Source: a virus. Taken from it: DNA of 64,000 bases. The DNA is taken from IMG/VR virus record IMGVR_UViG_3300031566_000001, positions 62,001-126,000 of that record. One strand, given 5' to 3'. Below the pieces are notes generated by a model. That model made no database searches, was not told where the DNA came from, and worked only from the letters and a program-made list of their open reading frames with translations. The position numbers and the translations under genes are program-made. How positions within the stretch are numbered: the stretch's first letter is position 1; each line of letters begins with the position of its first letter. This document shows positions 421 to 62,390 of the stretch, one piece after another.

Positions 421-1632
421 ATGATTGTACAGAAGAGCCATAGGATACAACTGAGACCCAACAATGAGCACCGAAGCGGTTTCAACCGCTGGGTTGGTGC
501 TTACCGTTGGACCTACAACTGGGCGCTAGAACAGAAGAAGACAGCCTATGAGCAAGAGGGCAAGTCACTGAGTAAGTACGATGTGCAGAAACTCTTGACT
601 ATTGAGAAACACACGCTGGAAAGGGCGTGGCTCAATGATATCCTGCGAGACACGCTTGTCAATGCAATATGGAACATGGACAGGGCATACCAGAACTTCT
701 TCCGGCGGGTCAAGAATGGAGAGGCCAAAAAGGGTTTCCCAAAGTTCAAGTCAAGACGGACGGCGCGGCGCGTTTTCCACGTCACGGCGTACCTCGTGCA
801 ATTGAGCGAAGACCGACGGAGCGTCAAGTTGCCTAAACTTGGATGGGTTAGGATGAGCAAGGCCCTGCGATTTGAGGGCAAGATGGTTGGGACAGTGGCT
901 GTCAGTGAAGAGGCGGGGCGGTGGTATGCATCCTTCGTCGTTGAGACTGAGATACCCGATCCTCCGGATCGTAGTGCTGACCCTGTGGTGGGCATCGACG
1001 TCGGTATCAAAACGCTAATGACGCTTTCTGATGGGAAGCGATATGAGAATCCAAAGGCTACCTATGAGCTAGAGAAGCTACTGGCGCGGTCACAGCGCCA
1101 ACTATCCCGCAAGACTAAGGGGAGTAAGCGGCGGGCTAGGGCAAAGCTGAGAGTCCAGCGGATACAGAAGCGCATCAAGGATACACGGGTGAACGCGGCG
1201 CACCAAGCCACGGCGGAGGTGGTAAGGGACTATGGACTGGTGGCTATGGAGGACTTGAATGTCAAAGGCATGGTCAAGAATCGTCACTTGGCAAAGGCCG
1301 TGTCAGACTCCAATTTCAATCGGTTACGCCAGCAGTTGACGTACAAGACCGCGTGGAGCGGCAGTGAACTGAGGTTTGTGGACCGTTGGTTCCCGTCCAG
1401 TAAGCTGTGCTCCGAGTGCGGTTGCATCAATGATAATCTGACGCTTTCAGATAGGAGGTGGACTTGCGATTGTGGGGCTGTTCATGACAGGGACCTAAAC
1501 GCTGCCCAGAACATTCTTGCGGCGGCGCTAAAGTTGGCCGACGAATCGGCGGTCACTGGGCGTGGAGGGATAGGGGCCTTAAGTCCTCCCGATGAAGCGT
1601 CAAGCGGGCAGCAGGAGGTTTTAGATGCATAG
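421..1632 (+). CDS. tnpB: TnpB, RNA-guided nuclease of IS200/IS605-type elements
   Basis: This 403-residue protein has the usual TnpB length and architecture: an N-terminal helix-turn-helix region, a RuvC-like core and a zinc ribbon. The catalytic acids are in place: D in VGIDVG (about residue 193), E in MEDLNV (about 277) and D in HDRDLNAA (356-358). The zinc ribbon has CSEC and CDC pairs between the second and third acids. TnpB enzymes use an RNA from the element's 3' end to cut DNA. No tnpA lies nearby, so the element is non-autonomous or has been kept by the phage as a nuclease. The 3' end of the gene overlaps the guide-RNA scaffold. The protein looks intact. Confidence 0.93.
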   Translation: MIVQKSHRIQLRPNNEHRSGFNRWVGAYRWTYNWALEQKKTAYEQEGKSLSKYDVQKLLTIEKHTLERAWLNDILRDTLVNAIWNMDRAYQNFFRRVKNGEAKKGFPKFKSRRTARRVFHVTAYLVQLSEDRRSVKLPKLGWVRMSKALRFEGKMVGTVAVSEEAGRWYASFVVETEIPDPPDRSADPVVGIDVGIKTLMTLSDGKRYENPKATYELEKLLARSQRQLSRKTKGSKRRARAKLRVQRIQKRIKDTRVNAAHQATAEVVRDYGLVAMEDLNVKGMVKNRHLAKAVSDSNFNRLRQQLTYKTAWSGSELRFVDRWFPSSKLCSECGCINDNLTLSDRRWTCDCGAVHDRDLNAAQNILAAALKLADESAVTGRGGIGALSPPDEASSGQQEVLDA

Positions 1633-1658
1633 GACCCGCAACCCCGAAATGACGGGGT
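1535..1658 (+). ncRNA. omega/reRNA scaffold at the tnpB 3' end (right end of the element)
   Basis: In TnpB systems the guide RNA comes from the 3' end of the gene plus the right end. Here three possible stems are visible: GGCCG/CGGTC (1536-1540 with 1550-1554, one G-U pair), GGAGG/CCTCC (1564-1568 with 1585-1589), and a terminal hairpin ACCCCG-AAATGA-CGGGGT (1641-1658). The segment recurs with conserved sequence and compensatory stem changes at 34254-34361, which supports a functional RNA. The guide would begin just after about 1658, in the sequence that precedes the CRISPR-like array. Confidence 0.7.
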
Positions 1659-1692
1659 CTCCACAGCGCGTGGGCAATCGCTATTGTGAAGG

Positions 1693-1846
1693 GTGCACCC
1701 CATGCGCATGTGGGGGATTCGTCCGGTCGCCGGCACTCCAGGAAGGCTCCGAAGCGTGCACCCCATGCGCATGTGGGGGATTCGTACATCATGCAAAAGG
1801 GGCTTGCCGTGGTGGCGTGCACCCCATGGGCGTATGGGGGATTCGT
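1693..1846 (+). CRISPR. mini-CRISPR array, three repeats and two spacers, type I-E-like
   Basis: Repeats of 30 bp occupy 1693-1722, 1756-1785 and 1817-1846. The first two are identical, beginning GTGCACCCCATG and ending GGGGGATTCGT. The third has substitutions inside the loop but keeps a CCCCAT/ATGGGG stem, as terminal repeats often degenerate. Spacers are 33 nt (1723-1755) and 31 nt (1786-1816) and are unrelated to each other. Repeat length, the central GC palindrome and the 61-63 bp period fit type I-E arrays. No cas gene is visible, so the array would depend on host Cas proteins. It lies directly downstream of the tnpB element. Confidence 0.82.
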
Positions 1847-28796: not shown

Positions 28797-28818
28797 CATA
28801 CCCATAGGAGATAGATTG

Positions 28819-31449
28819 ATGCGTGTCCAGATGGTGCCGGGGGAGCGGTTCTTCCGCTCGCATGAGAGCGGCATAAAGCGGGTCGTGGAGGCGTACTGCC
28901 AGTACCTGCCCGAGTTCGGTGTGGAGGTTGTGAACACCGACGAGGGCACAGACTACGATGTCAAAGCGGTACATGCGGGGATGGCCCCGGATTGCGACGT
29001 GGCGCATTTGCACGGGCTGTACTGGACCTCTGACTATGAGGCCCAGGCGTGGGAGTGGAAGGCCAACAGCGGGGTCATTCAGAACCTGCGTGTGGCCAGG
29101 GAGGTCACGGTGCCCTCGGAGTGGGTGGCCATGACTCTCAGGCGGGACCTGCGCATTCAGCCCCATGTGATTCCCCACGGCATAGAGTGGGATGAATGGG
29201 CGCATCACCACGAGGAGAGCGGCGGGTACGTGCTGTGGAACAAGAATAGGGATGCTGACGTGTGCACGCCCTACCCGATGGCAGACCTGGCACGCATGAT
29301 GCCAGAGGTGAAGTTCCTGTCCACGTTTGCGCCGCAGGATGCGCCTGACAATGTGGAGGTCATTGGGCTACAGGAGTACGATGGGATGCGGCTTCTGGTG
29401 CAGGGTGCAGGGGTGTACCTGAGCACGACCAAAGAGACGTTCGGAATCGGCATCCTGGAGGCCATGGCAGCGGGTGTGCCGGTGCTAGGATTTGCGTGGG
29501 GCAACATCGGGAACCTGGTGCAACATCAAGTCAACGGGTGGTTATCTGCACCAGGGGATTTCGATCACTTACGGGAAGGGCTGGAGTACTGCTTACAACA
29601 TCGGGTAAGGATGGGCGAGGCCGGGCGTGAGATGTCCAGGCATTATCACTGGAGGGATGCCTGTGAGCAAGTGGCAGAGGTCTACAGGCTGGCAGGGCAG
29701 GAGCGCCCTGCAGACGTGGCGGTGATCATCCCATCCCACAACTACGCGGACAAGGTAGGAAGGGCCATAGAGAGTGCCCTGGCACAGACCTATGAAGGGC
29801 TTACAGATGTAGTGGTAGTAGATGACGGGAGCGATGACAACACGGGGCAGGTCGTAGTAGAGTATGAAAAAGACAACCGGGTGCGATACATCAAGCAACA
29901 GAATCAGGGTGTGGCGGTGGCCCGGAACAAGGGCATTGCCAGTGTCAACACAAAGTACGTCTGCTGCCTGGATGCGGACGATGCCATCGCACCGGAGTTC
30001 CTGAGCAGGTGCATCGAGCCACTGGAAGCAGACCGGTCATTGGGGCTGTCATTTGCGGGGCTGTGGGCTATGACCCCGGACGGCCAGGCAGCTCAGTCCA
30101 GGTGGCCGGACGGCTACGACTTCGAGCAGCAGATAGCACGGCGCAACCAGGTCCCCACGTGCTGCGTGTTCCGTAGGGAGGCCTGGGAGAGATTGGGCGG
30201 GTATCGGAAAAGGTATTGCCCAGACGGCGCGGGTAGCGAGGATGCGGAGTTCTGGACTCGCATGGGGGCTTACGGCTGGGGCGGGGTACAGGCTACCAAG
30301 GAACCGCTGTTCCTTTACTCCCTAGGTGCGGGCCACGTGACGAAGAAGCTGGGGGAAGGCAATTACCAGGAGCCGGACTGGCTGGCGTGGCACCCGTGGG
30401 TTCAGGATAGACAATTCCCCCTAGCTTGTGTGGCGGAAGTAGAGAGATTCAGCCACCCGGTACGGGCCTACGATACGCCGTGGATCAGCGTGATCGTGCC
30501 CGTGGGTCCAGGGCATGAGGAGATCGTGGTGGACGCACTGGACAGCCTTGAGGCGCAGATGTTCCGCCAATGGGAGTGCGTGCTGGTAAATGACACAGGG
30601 GAGCCGTTGCCGGAGCAGCTACTAAGGGCATATCCCTATGTAACACTGGTGGAGACGCCGGGGTCAAAGGGTGCAGGTTATGCACGGAACAGGGGCGTGG
30701 AGGCAGCCAGGGGTCCCCTGCTTACTTTCCTAGATGCAGACGACTACTTGCAGCCGGGGTTTTTGCAGGCGTGTATAGATGCCAGGCTGCAGACGGGCAA
30801 GTGGGTCTACACGGATTTGTGGTCATCGTGGCCCAACGGCGAGATACACGAGTACCCCGTAGACGACTTCGGCGTGGAGAGCCTGTGGCGGGACGGCCTG
30901 GGGGCGGTAACGCTGGTCACTGATCATGCCGAGTTCCAGGCCGTAGGGGGCTTCGATGAGGAGATGCACACGCGGGAAGATTGGGACTTCCAGCTCAAGC
31001 TGGCCATGGCGGGATTCTGCGGCGTGCGTGTGTCCGCTCCCTTGATGACCTACCGCCTGGCTACGGGGGAGCGCAGGGACCAGCAGGCGAGTGATACCGC
31101 GACTATGCTGAGAGAGAAATACCCACTGGAGGATTTGATGGCAAGATGCGGAGGGTGCGGGCAGGCTCAAGCAATGAGTATAGACCCGCCTCAGAACTGG
31201 AGTACCAAAGAGGCAGCGGGCTTCGAGCGGCTGGAATACACAGGCTCAAACCGGGGCACCTCTACGTTCAGGGGCATAACGGGGCGCAGCTACCGCTTCG
31301 GGAACAACGATGACTCGCGGGTGGGCTTGGTGCACCCTGAGGATGCCCGCAACTTTATCGACGTGAAGCATCTACCTTTCAAGCGTGTACAGACGCTAGT
31401 TCCGGCACAGTCGCTGCCCACAGCGCTGGTGGCCCCGGTTTCAGGGTAG
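28819..31449 (+). CDS. triple glycosyltransferase (GT4, GT2, GT2) with a virion-type C-terminal domain
   Basis: 876 residues. Residues 1-295 fit a GT4 GT-B enzyme (FGIGILEAMAAGVPVLGF near 215). About 299-540 is a GT2 domain (VAVIIPSHNY, VVVDDGSDDNTG, CLDADDAI). About 555-775 is another (ISVIVPVGPGHEE, LTFLDADDYL, REDWDFQL). After CGGCG (about 778) a 100-residue tail, YTGSNRGTSTFRGITGRSYRFG then VHPEDARNF, resembles a small domain found in phage neck proteins. It lies between capsid and connector genes. It probably builds a glycan on the virion or is itself packaged. SD AGGAGATAG. Confidence 0.8.
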   Translation: MRVQMVPGERFFRSHESGIKRVVEAYCQYLPEFGVEVVNTDEGTDYDVKAVHAGMAPDCDVAHLHGLYWTSDYEAQAWEWKANSGVIQNLRVAREVTVPSEWVAMTLRRDLRIQPHVIPHGIEWDEWAHHHEESGGYVLWNKNRDADVCTPYPMADLARMMPEVKFLSTFAPQDAPDNVEVIGLQEYDGMRLLVQGAGVYLSTTKETFGIGILEAMAAGVPVLGFAWGNIGNLVQHQVNGWLSAPGDFDHLREGLEYCLQHRVRMGEAGREMSRHYHWRDACEQVAEVYRLAGQERPADVAVIIPSHNYADKVGRAIESALAQTYEGLTDVVVVDDGSDDNTGQVVVEYEKDNRVRYIKQQNQGVAVARNKGIASVNTKYVCCLDADDAIAPEFLSRCIEPLEADRSLGLSFAGLWAMTPDGQAAQSRWPDGYDFEQQIARRNQVPTCCVFRREAWERLGGYRKRYCPDGAGSEDAEFWTRMGAYGWGGVQATKEPLFLYSLGAGHVTKKLGEGNYQEPDWLAWHPWVQDRQFPLACVAEVERFSHPVRAYDTPWISVIVPVGPGHEEIVVDALDSLEAQMFRQWECVLVNDTGEPLPEQLLRAYPYVTLVETPGSKGAGYARNRGVEAARGPLLTFLDADDYLQPGFLQACIDARLQTGKWVYTDLWSSWPNGEIHEYPVDDFGVESLWRDGLGAVTLVTDHAEFQAVGGFDEEMHTREDWDFQLKLAMAGFCGVRVSAPLMTYRLATGERRDQQASDTATMLREKYPLEDLMARCGGCGQAQAMSIDPPQNWSTKEAAGFERLEYTGSNRGTSTFRGITGRSYRFGNNDDSRVGLVHPEDARNFIDVKHLPFKRVQTLVPAQSLPTALVAPVSG

Positions 31450-32731: not shown

Positions 32732-34246
32732 ATGAGTAACGGCAATGCAACACCAGCACAAAAGGGATTCAGCCGTGTGTTCCTCATCGAGGGGAGGGCA
32801 CGGGGTGACCATGTGCCTGTATACATGGGGTGTATGAGTGCCGGGGGGATAGACTGGTCCTTGGGTACCGTCTCCAAGATCGATTGTCCCAGCGACCGGC
32901 AGTACGATGCGTTTGTGGAGCGGGGGAAGAGCAAGTCGGAATCAGACCGGCCCTCAAGCTCACTGGTGGGTCGGTATGCGGCGGACCTGGAGAGCACGAT
33001 GATTCGGCTGGCCAGGACCGGCTGTGCATTTGACCTGCACTATCATTTTGGGGTGTGCACAGACCCGCAGCTGTTCAACGTCTTCCAGAAGGCCGTTGTA
33101 TGGGAAGATGTTGACATGACCAAATACTCCACGGACCCCCTCGGTGCCTTGGAGGAGGGAGACCGCGGAGCGATAAATGAGACCGGGGAGCTATCCGCCA
33201 GGGAGTTCTACGAGGTGCTCCCCATGGCCTTCGCAGAGGTGGCGGCGGCCATTGTCACCAATGAGATCATGGACGTGGTGGTCTGTGATAGCGTATCATG
33301 CGGGGAGTGCGCGGACCAGTCAGGCGGCTGCGAGAGGGTGTACTCAGTCAGCCTGGCAGCAGGCGGATCACCGGGTACACCTGCTGATGTAGTGTACACG
33401 CTGAACGGCGCGGCAGGGCCTTGGGCCACCAGCGAGATCGACTCACTCGGTGCAACGGAGGACCCGACGGGGCTGGCATGCCTGGCCGGGTACGTGGTGG
33501 TGGTATCAGCAGACTCGTGCTCCCTGCACTACGTACTACAGGCTGATCTGGACACGGTGGGTGACGAGACCTGGGTGGAGAACCTTGTGGGGTTCGTGGA
33601 CAAGGGAACGGGAACCTGCCCCTTGGACATCTGGAGCGTGGGCAACTACGCCTTCATCTCCGCTGAGGGCGGGTATGTGTACGGCACTGCTGACCCGACA
33701 GCGGGTGTGACTATCTTGGAAGCGGGCAACGCGGTGACCAACGCCTTGTGGGCCATCCACGCCATGAACCGGAACGTCTGTGTGGCTGTGGGCAGCGCAG
33801 GCGCAGTGATCCGGACAGGGAACGGTGGGGACACCTGGCAGCACATGAGCGCGCCTGTGGGCCTTGGCACGTCCCTACAATCGGTGTGGGTCAAGACCGA
33901 GACAGAGTGGTGGGTCGGTTCCAGTGACGGGCGGCTGTTTGAGACCTTGGACGGAGGCGATACGTGGAACCTGCGGCAGAACTGGGCCGGGGGTGCCGTC
34001 AGTGATATCGCGTTCTCCTCGGACAATGTGATGACCGTTTCGCACACCACGGCTGCCGGGGTGGGGCGGCTACTGCGCAGCTACAACGGCGGTAACAGCT
34101 TCGTGGTGCTACCGGAGAGCGCAGGGGCCTTGCCAGCCAGCAGTCGGCTGAACGCCATTGCCCTGTGTGAGGATGATGTCAACCAGGTGGTCGCGGTCGG
34201 GTTGGACGGCGCCACAGACGGCATCATAATCTGGGGCGAGGACTAG
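32732..34246 (+). CDS. major tail protein with a C-terminal beta-propeller-like domain
   Basis: 504 residues. The N-terminal 190 residues fit a tail tube protein (RVFLIEGRARGDHVPVYMGC, SLVGRYAADLESTMIRLAR). From about 210 on there are repeated blades of the YCF48/BNR type (VGSAGAVIRTGNGGDTWQHM, VGSSDGRLFETLDGGDTWN), so a propeller likely projects from the tube. Propellers often bind glycans. Located before the chaperone genes, as tube genes are. SD GGAGGTGG. Confidence 0.7.
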   Translation: MSNGNATPAQKGFSRVFLIEGRARGDHVPVYMGCMSAGGIDWSLGTVSKIDCPSDRQYDAFVERGKSKSESDRPSSSLVGRYAADLESTMIRLARTGCAFDLHYHFGVCTDPQLFNVFQKAVVWEDVDMTKYSTDPLGALEEGDRGAINETGELSAREFYEVLPMAFAEVAAAIVTNEIMDVVVCDSVSCGECADQSGGCERVYSVSLAAGGSPGTPADVVYTLNGAAGPWATSEIDSLGATEDPTGLACLAGYVVVVSADSCSLHYVLQADLDTVGDETWVENLVGFVDKGTGTCPLDIWSVGNYAFISAEGGYVYGTADPTAGVTILEAGNAVTNALWAIHAMNRNVCVAVGSAGAVIRTGNGGDTWQHMSAPVGLGTSLQSVWVKTETEWWVGSSDGRLFETLDGGDTWNLRQNWAGGAVSDIAFSSDNVMTVSHTTAAGVGRLLRSYNGGNSFVVLPESAGALPASSRLNAIALCEDDVNQVVAVGLDGATDGIIIWGED

Positions 34247-34253
34247 AAAATAC

Positions 34254-34361
34254 TGACCGATAAATCAGCGGTCACTGGGCGTGGAGGGCTAGACCAGTAG
34301 GTTCCCTATGAAGCGTCAAGGGGGCATTGATGTAAGACCCTTAGTCCTGAATTGACAGGAC
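34254..34361 (+). ncRNA. solitary guide-RNA scaffold related to the tnpB right end
   Basis: The segment repeats 1535-1658: 21 identical bases (34268-34288, GCGGTCACTGGGCGTGGAGG and G), 13 identical bases (ATGAAGCGTCAAG, 34308-34320) and a terminal hairpin GTCCTG-AATTGA-CAGGAC (34344-34361). The hairpin differs from the tnpB copy at three pairs, each compensated, and has a near-identical loop. A first stem GACCG/CGGTC has A-U where the other has G-U. There is no tnpB here. It ends about 20 nt before the SD of the chaperone gene, so its guide would overlap that SD. Confidence 0.65.
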
Positions 34362-34389
34362 CTATATTTGGATTTGGGAGGATCTTCCC

Positions 34390-34926
34390 ATGGCAACAAA
34401 AGTGAAGCATACCAAGAAGAAGGGCTTGCCGCCTGCTGCATTGGCGGCTATCGAGACCGCCAAGGAGATGCACAAGGCAGAGAAGCCCTTGGAGGTGACG
34501 CTGATACACGGGGTCACGGCCACGCTGCATGCTGTGGCCCCGTCCCTGATACAAGATGTGCAGCTGCGCATCGAGGACCCCAAGGTCCCAGTGGTCTACA
34601 TCGAGGCCAAGGAGCGGGACGAGGAGAACCCGAACGACCCCTCATACCTAGCTGCAATGGATCGGGCGGCGCAAGAGCGTAACGCGGCGGTCATGGACGC
34701 CCTAATTATGATGGGCGTAGAGCTGCCCGAGGGGTTCGAGGTGCCGCCGAAGTGGGTGAAGCGTCTCAAGATACTGGGCTTCGACTTCGATGAGGATGAT
34801 CCTGACGAGGTGGAGTTCGTCTTCAAGAAGTACCACACTAGCACTAGCGTCATAGCGACGCTGTCTGTGATGTCGGGTATCCGGGAGGAGGACGTGGCCG
34901 CATTCCGCGAGCTTTTTCGCGGTTAA
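34390..34926 (+). CDS. tail assembly chaperone, upstream part (gpG-like)
   Basis: 178 residues between the tail tube and tape measure genes, the usual place of the chaperone pair. It is acidic in the C-terminal half (FDFDEDDPDEVEFVFKKYHT) and ends EDVAAFRELFRG. SD GGGAGGAT at about 34376-34383. The last codons CTT TTT CGC carry a likely slip site leading into the next frame. Confidence 0.65.
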   Translation: MATKVKHTKKKGLPPAALAAIETAKEMHKAEKPLEVTLIHGVTATLHAVAPSLIQDVQLRIEDPKVPVVYIEAKERDEENPNDPSYLAAMDRAAQERNAAVMDALIMMGVELPEGFEVPPKWVKRLKILGFDFDEDDPDEVEFVFKKYHTSTSVIATLSVMSGIREEDVAAFRELFRG

Positions 34927-61944: not shown

Positions 61945-62390
61945 GGCGGCGCTACTTTGAGTGGGATTACGTTAGTAACCGCATGACTGAGTGGGCTCGC
62001 GTGGGGCACTGCTGCCAGTGCGCCGCGTGTTGTCAGAACAGCATCGGCTTCAAGTTTGAGAGCAGCAAGCTCTATGAAGCGAAGAAATCGGGCAGTTACT
62101 ACACCACTGGCAAGGGCATCTGGCAGGAGGTCCGCGTAGGGGGCCGGTACAGGCACTTCTTCCAAATGGAGTACGTGGCTGCCAAAGGGAAGGGGTGCGC
62201 CAGCCTGGAGCGTGGCTTGTGCGAGGAGTATGAGCACCGTACTTGGATTTGCCGGGAGTGGCCCTTCTCGCCGCGCTGCATAGAAGCCACCTCGGAGTGT
62301 ACTTATGGATTCCGCGAGGTTGATCGTAGGTCTTTTGTGGTCGTCGTCCCTGAGAAGGACGAGGGCGATTTCGTACATGTGCCATTGTAG
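61941..62390 (+). CDS. YkgJ-like metal-cluster-binding protein
   Basis: 149 residues. CCQCAACCQN at about 24-33, GCASLERGLCEEYEHRTWIC (about 89-108), then REWPFSPRC, fit the YkgJ family (C-x3-C-x2-CC then C-x-I/L...C-x-I/V-Y-x-x-R-P-x-x-C-R-x-W-P), thought to bind Fe or Zn. Its role is not known. In this cluster it may modify a sugar or peptide. Confidence 0.65.
   Translation: MRRRYFEWDYVSNRMTEWARVGHCCQCAACCQNSIGFKFESSKLYEAKKSGSYYTTGKGIWQEVRVGGRYRHFFQMEYVAAKGKGCASLERGLCEEYEHRTWICREWPFSPRCIEATSECTYGFREVDRRSFVVVVPEKDEGDFVHVPL

Follow-up and report, generated by a model that had tools for sequence, protein, structure and literature searches.

A solitary TnpB-type guide-RNA scaffold between two late genes of a phage as a candidate trans-acting omegaRNA

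Locus and source record

A solitary guide-RNA scaffold of the TnpB type was found between two late genes of a phage, in a stretch of 64,000 nucleotides (hereafter the window) covering positions 62,001 to 126,000 of the IMG/VR record IMGVR_UViG_3300031566_000001, which has 143,142 bases. The scaffold occupies window positions 34254-34371 on the plus strand, 118 nt counted from the first base of stem 1 up to the base preceding the guide, and is flanked on the same strand by a gene for a 504-aa protein (stop at 34246) and a gene for a 178-aa protein (ATG at 34390). The gap between the upstream stop codon and stem 1 is just 7 nt. Based on comparisons of sequence and predicted structure, we lean with modest confidence towards the view that this element is a functional stand-alone omegaRNA gene supplying the TnpB nuclease of the phage in trans.

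The scaffold was recognized as homologous to, though diverged from, the tnpB right-end RNA by a blastn search against the window, in which the 3' end of tnpB was aligned with 80% identity over 76 bases (E=1e-12) and was the sole strong non-self match, the runner-up having E=1.1. Two runs of identical bases, of 21 (GCGGTCACTGGGCGTGGAGGG) and 13 (ATGAAGCGTCAAG) nt, were read in the sequence, and no TnpB-type open reading frame was detected near the solitary copy. In these points, as in the TnpB-type identity and the distance of 32.6 kb from tnpB, the initial annotation of the window held. It had ended the scaffold at 34361; the true end was placed at 34371 because the pseudoknot strand lies beyond the terminal hairpin. 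With this length, and with stem 1 as its beginning, the solitary scaffold fits the 116-nt minimal scaffold of ISDra2 TnpB.

Three copies of the scaffold were recovered from the 143-kb record by a covariance-model search, namely two tnpB-linked (cis) scaffolds and the solitary one. Self-comparison of the record resolved it into two genomes of roughly 70-74 kb, collinear and ~75% identical, phage A (which carries the solitary scaffold) and phage B, joined at a near-identical tnpB block. A single 143-kb phage was rejected, as the two halves align collinearly at ~75%. The 69,345-base contig 3300031539_000018 represents phage B. For phage A, part of the genome is found in an independent 42-kb contig, 3300031565_000109, which comprises the 3' part of tnpB, a CRISPR-like array and the solitary scaffold; because both loci are present there, the occurrence of TnpB together with a solitary scaffold in a single phage is independent of the joined record. 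When IMG/VR was searched with two DNA patterns for the scaffold, only phages A and B were found, plus two chance matches (L011, and L179 within coding sequence). No match was found in Rfam, and a covariance model (R1) matched one distant scaffold weakly (E=0.1).

The same gene pair is present in phage B, where 39 nt separate the two genes and the scaffold is missing (an empty site), and the region upstream of the solitary scaffold aligns with phage B coding sequence. A distant relative likewise has no solitary scaffold. Gain of the scaffold in the phage A lineage would be the simplest history.

Coordinates of the features discussed are collected in Table 1. For the 178-aa protein encoded downstream, neither the phage collection nor PHROGs gave a match. 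The structural region of the phage also encodes an 877-aa protein with two glycosyltransferase domains (28816-31449).

Table 1. Features of the window (phage A)
Feature	Position	Strand	Remark
tnpB	421-1632	+	403 aa; RuvC catalytic D, E, D and zinc finger present
Cis scaffold	1535-1669	+	overlaps the 3' end of tnpB; pseudoknot strand damaged
CRISPR-like mini-array	1693-1845	+	repeats 1693-1721, 1756-1784, 1817-1845 (last degenerate); spacers of 34 and 32 nt
Upstream gene	32732-34246	+	504 aa, BNR-like repeats
Stem 1	34254-34274	+	34254-34259 pairs with 34269-34274; loop holds pseudoknot strand TAAAT at 34261-34265
Stem 2 (GGCGT/GCGTC) enclosing stem 3 (GGG/CCC)	34278-34320	+	conserved CGTGGAG and ATGAAGC motifs
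Terminal hairpin	34344-34361	+	three base pairs compensated relative to the tnpB copies
Pseudoknot strand ATTTG	34366-34370	+	4 nt past the terminal hairpin; partner of TAAAT in the stem-1 loop
Predicted 16-nt guide ATTTGGGAGGATCTTC	34372-34387	+	covers the Shine-Dalgarno sequence GGGAGG of the gene at 34390
Downstream gene	34390-34926	+	178 aa; possible tail assembly chaperone by its position just before the tape-measure gene
Tape-measure gene	35189-37780		matches phrog_4372

Nested fold and pseudoknot

The nested fold of the solitary scaffold was compared stem by stem with that of the tnpB-linked copies. Stem 2 and the outer part of stem 3 were unchanged, while the inner part of stem 3 was GACC/GGTT in the solitary copy and GGGG/TCCT in the cis scaffolds, paired in both cases. 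A G-U pair of stem 1 in the tnpB copies was replaced by A-U, and in stem 4 of the solitary copy one G-C and one C-G pair each became G-U. The terminal hairpins, GTCCTG-AATTGA-CAGGAC and ACCCCG-AAATGA-CGGGGT, differed by three double changes. All 25 nested pairs compared were thus kept despite 10 substitutions, an outcome obtained in 0.015% of trials (P=0.00015) when an equal number of substitutions per arm was placed at random. With the pseudoknot included, 97.8% of the cells in the three-sequence alignment were paired and five pairs were changed on both sides; among 500 shuffles, 2 did equally well, and shifting the register by 1-3 columns lowered the paired share to 37-50%. These statistics refer to three sequences only (the solitary and the two tnpB-linked scaffolds), and the structure was chosen after seeing them. 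Folding energies of single sequences were not significant and hence uninformative (z from -1.6 to +0.6). The pair of motifs CGTGGAG and ATGAAGC was also present in other TnpB right ends.

The divergence between the solitary and the cis scaffolds was 0.30-0.32 of the aligned sites, close to the fourfold-site divergence of neighboring genes between phages A and B (0.33-0.41), so that there was time for decay, yet the fold was held. The compensated hairpin and the change of a G-U to an A-U pair had been pointed out in the initial annotation, and both were seen in the alignment; its further claim that the RNA fold is under constraint was supported by the pair counts and by the simulation.

A predicted pseudoknot between the stem-1 loop and the bases before the guide, overlooked in the initial annotation, was found as well. 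In the cis scaffold of phage B, the loop sequence CGAAT, 17 nt before TGGAG, forms five Watson-Crick pairs with ATTCG, and the ATTTG of the solitary copy stands at the same offset from the terminal hairpin as that ATTCG. The solitary pseudoknot (UAAAU/AUUUG against CGAAU/AUUCG) retained 5 of 5 pairs, one being doubly changed and one becoming G-U by a single change; such a pseudoknot arose by chance on a shuffled flank with a probability of 0.017. The solitary copy could also adopt a second register, with GATTTG, which would shift the guide ~5 nt downstream. In the cis scaffold of phage A, ATTCG was replaced by ACAGCG with the loss of the core pairs (1 of 5 pairs left without a gap, 3 of 5 with one), and its bases were identical in the independent contig 3300031565_000109. 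It is the solitary copy of phage A, rather than the linked scaffold, that keeps the whole predicted pseudoknot. With the pseudoknot core of the linked scaffold gone, phage A may by now depend mainly on the solitary copy for a self-contained guide. The proposal of a second guide was strengthened by these two observations, the compensated pseudoknot of the solitary copy and the damaged one of the linked scaffold.

The architecture follows that of the right-end RNA (omegaRNA or reRNA) of ISDra2 TnpB, in which the UUC before the guide pairs with the GAA of the stem-1 loop and a 116-nt scaffold is fully active (PMC10097598). Shared features are stem 1 with a pseudoknot strand in its loop, stem 2 around stem 3, the terminal hairpin, and the second pseudoknot strand directly before a guide taken from the flanking DNA. 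The solitary copy differs in being detached from tnpB, in its UAAAU/AUUUG pseudoknot, in an additional stem located after stem 2 and before the terminal hairpin, and in having no detectable left end or TnpA. Other TnpB right ends that were fetched had mostly G(A/G)A 16-17 nt before TGGAG and TTCAC at the end.

The tnpB block and the adjoining array

The TnpB protein of phage A contains the Pfam domains OrfB_IS605 and Cas12f1-like_TNB and is a relative of ISDra2 TnpB (E=2e-73) with the catalytic triad kept. Its identification as TldR, a nuclease-dead TnpB, was rejected, as the catalytic residues are in place. No close relative was found among the GTDB genomes (best 42%). No gene for TnpA, the Y1 transposase, was found in the 143-kb record or in its two component contigs; the host could supply one.

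Between phages A and B, tnpB showed a dN of 0.010 and a dS of 0.075 (nonsynonymous and synonymous divergence), with ~600 nt identical (window about 425-1025). The whole tnpB block (226-1700) is 90-100% identical between genomes that are ~75% identical. This likeness likely reflects recent exchange or homing; assembly sharing is another possibility.

Immediately after the tnpB scaffold, both phages have a CRISPR-like array, which starts 23 nt past the scaffold in phage A; the phage B copy lies at about 137489-137760 of the 143-kb record. The arrays consist of 29-nt repeats and 31-34-nt spacers, two in phage A and four in phage B, with none in common. The repeat, which we take to be like a type I-E repeat, was absent from 400 Chloroflexota genomes and was not found beyond chance in plasmids, and no Cas6e-type gene (PF08798) was detected in the 143-kb record. 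Targets of the spacers were found neither in the A/B record nor in the fetched loci or INPHARED (best E=3). The end of the repeat together with the base that follows it in most units (GATTCGT) matches the cis pseudoknot loop ACGAATC as a perfect complement over 7 nt and is the sole Watson-Crick run of at least 6 nt between the repeat and the cis scaffold. The chance of such a match was 0.0006 at that place and 0.185 for a 7-nt run anywhere. The solitary scaffold has no complementary run of at least 6 nt with the repeat.

The order tnpB, omegaRNA, array in phages A and B is the layout of Cas12f loci. It is conceivable, if unlikely, that the two phages represent an intermediate between TnpB and type V CRISPR systems, in which CRISPR RNAs from the array would pair, through the repeat end GATTCGT, with the stem-1 loop of the linked omegaRNA, acting like a trans-activating CRISPR RNA, the spacers would serve as guides of TnpB, and the solitary scaffold of phage A, incompatible with the array, would have taken over as a self-contained guide. 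A host-type mini-array (PMC6858448), rather than one feeding TnpB, would be a simpler alternative. Earlier work has noted CRISPR arrays in the vicinity of viral TnpBs (PMC12607003).

Possible roles of the solitary scaffold

The proposal that the solitary scaffold guides TnpB in trans rests on its homology and completeness, the matched changes, the lack of anything of tnpB upstream, the intact catalytic residues of the nuclease and the empty site of phage B. The solitary RNA would be transcribed within a late mRNA and its 5' end trimmed by TnpB, in the way other TnpBs process their own mRNA, whereupon the 16 nt from 34372 would become a guide used in trans. The TnpB complex might then cut insertion-free copies of the locus in A-like competitors, and the repair that follows would restore the insertion, the rivals being damaged. 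Cutting of insertion-free alleles followed by restoring repair has been proposed for TnpB of IS200/IS605 elements. It is known that TnpB itself processes the 5' side of its RNA (PMC10278001) and accepts a reRNA expressed from a separate plasmid (PMC8612924). The delocalized CRISPR RNA of CRISPR-Cas transposons (PMC11656645), which directs homing, is likewise a guide RNA that has diverged and lies apart from the main guide locus; unlike the present scaffold, it lies close to its element.

A second guide for TnpB, overlapping the Shine-Dalgarno sequence of the downstream gene, had already been suggested in the initial annotation. That suggestion was borne out in part: the scaffold type, the constrained fold and the overlap with GGGAGG hold, and a second guide is the best reading. 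The Shine-Dalgarno sequence itself lies in a 14-nt hairpin-forming stretch (34376-34389), which reads GGGAGGATCTTCCC in the window and GGGAGGACCTTCCC in phage B. Stand-alone trans-acting omegaRNAs were reportedly described for IscB by Altae-Tran in 2021; there, too, the guide RNA is far from the nuclease gene, but the nuclease is IscB instead of TnpB and the genome bacterial instead of that of a phage.

Several observations weigh against a guide acting in trans. The solitary copy was seen in a single phage lineage; phage B, the only close relative of phage A found, is without it. No match to the guide with fewer than 6 mismatches was detected in the rest of the 143-kb record, and the 21-nt stretch of the guide and the bases that follow it was found in phage A itself only, with no empty site or target. 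The phage B allele differs at 5 of the 16 guide positions, the first four included, so it is not a present target and should escape. Cleavage of the late mRNA at the scaffold would be costly to the downstream gene. The solitary copy may also derive from another phage, which would weaken the argument from time for decay. Finally, a second covariance model (R2), built from 17 more distant members of the GGAAC/TTCAC type and too narrow, matched no scaffold of the window, the tnpB-linked one included.

Scaffolds apart from TnpB were also sought in 47 TnpB virus records, using R2 and comparing the matches with the positions of TnpB. Internal scaffolds without TnpB occurred in at least 4 of the 33 records having a scaffold match, about one in eight. 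Four scaffold copies with four different guides were found in IMGVR_UViG_3300042332_001032, a record with two TnpB genes; at least three of them carry a left-end palindrome similar to the one of a tnpB in that record, so that they resemble terminal-only IS605 derivatives (PATEs). One internal-deletion derivative (G046) and one solitary copy (G025) were detected in further records. In the 335-kb record IMGVR_UViG_3300028888_000045, a solitary scaffold without a left end lies between two co-directional genes, with its pairs and its TTCAC end kept; it begins 26 nt past the stop of one gene and ends 36 nt before the ATG of the next, with the guide in the leader of the latter. By sequence, the intergenic scaffold type without a left end is thus represented by two independent cases.

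Since most of the solitary scaffolds in the other viruses are PATE-like, it was considered that the copy in phage A is a fossil or PATE-like remnant of an IS200/IS605 element of which only the right end is left, its fold reflecting recent function or the need of the transposase for a DNA hairpin. Terminal-only derivatives of this kind are known (PMC3119063) and, like the solitary copy, have a right end without tnpB and are expected to receive their proteins in trans; the empty site of phage B would agree with such an origin as well. However, PATEs keep both ends, a left-end palindrome and a right end, whereas the copy in phage A has the right end only, with just 7 nt after the upstream stop codon and no left end, and the record contains no TnpA gene. 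What was retained is exactly the RNA scaffold, in which stems 1, 4 and 5 and the pseudoknot were kept by paired changes, while a transposase would need the terminal hairpin alone. A remnant was judged doubtful, though it is the foremost alternative.

An RNA operator, in which TnpB bound to the scaffold within the tail gene leader would block or process the mRNA and tie expression to the level of TnpB, appears improbable. The scaffold does stand in a leader with its guide position over the Shine-Dalgarno sequence, a second phage also has a scaffold in a gene leader, and TnpB cleaves RNA 5' of its scaffold (PMC10278001), but phage B retains the homologous gene without the scaffold, no precedent for TnpB as a translational regulator was found, and the cases are two only, in the second of which the 16-nt guide stops short of the Shine-Dalgarno sequence.

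A decoy that would titrate TnpB, whether the phage's own or a competitor's, is very improbable: although solitary CRISPR repeat units (Racrs), also single guide-scaffold copies in a phage genome, serve as RNA anti-CRISPRs (PMC10651486), these act on host Cas proteins and lack the pseudoknot-guide architecture, whereas here the pseudoknot by the guide, needed for an active complex and dispensable for a decoy, was kept, the phage encodes TnpB itself, the copy resembles a TnpB scaffold and is not complementary over 6 nt or more to the repeat of the array in the same phage, and nothing found points to a decoy.

If the solitary scaffold does guide TnpB in trans, the phage would have split its TnpB system, with the nuclease gene next to those for replication and a separate guide gene among the structural genes, where the pseudoknot would have drifted to a matched pair of its own. 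Such a separation of guide and nuclease is of the kind thought to precede CRISPR-type type V systems. With solitary scaffolds in about one in eight scaffold-bearing TnpB virus records, annotation beside tnpB alone misses guides, each of which names a testable target.
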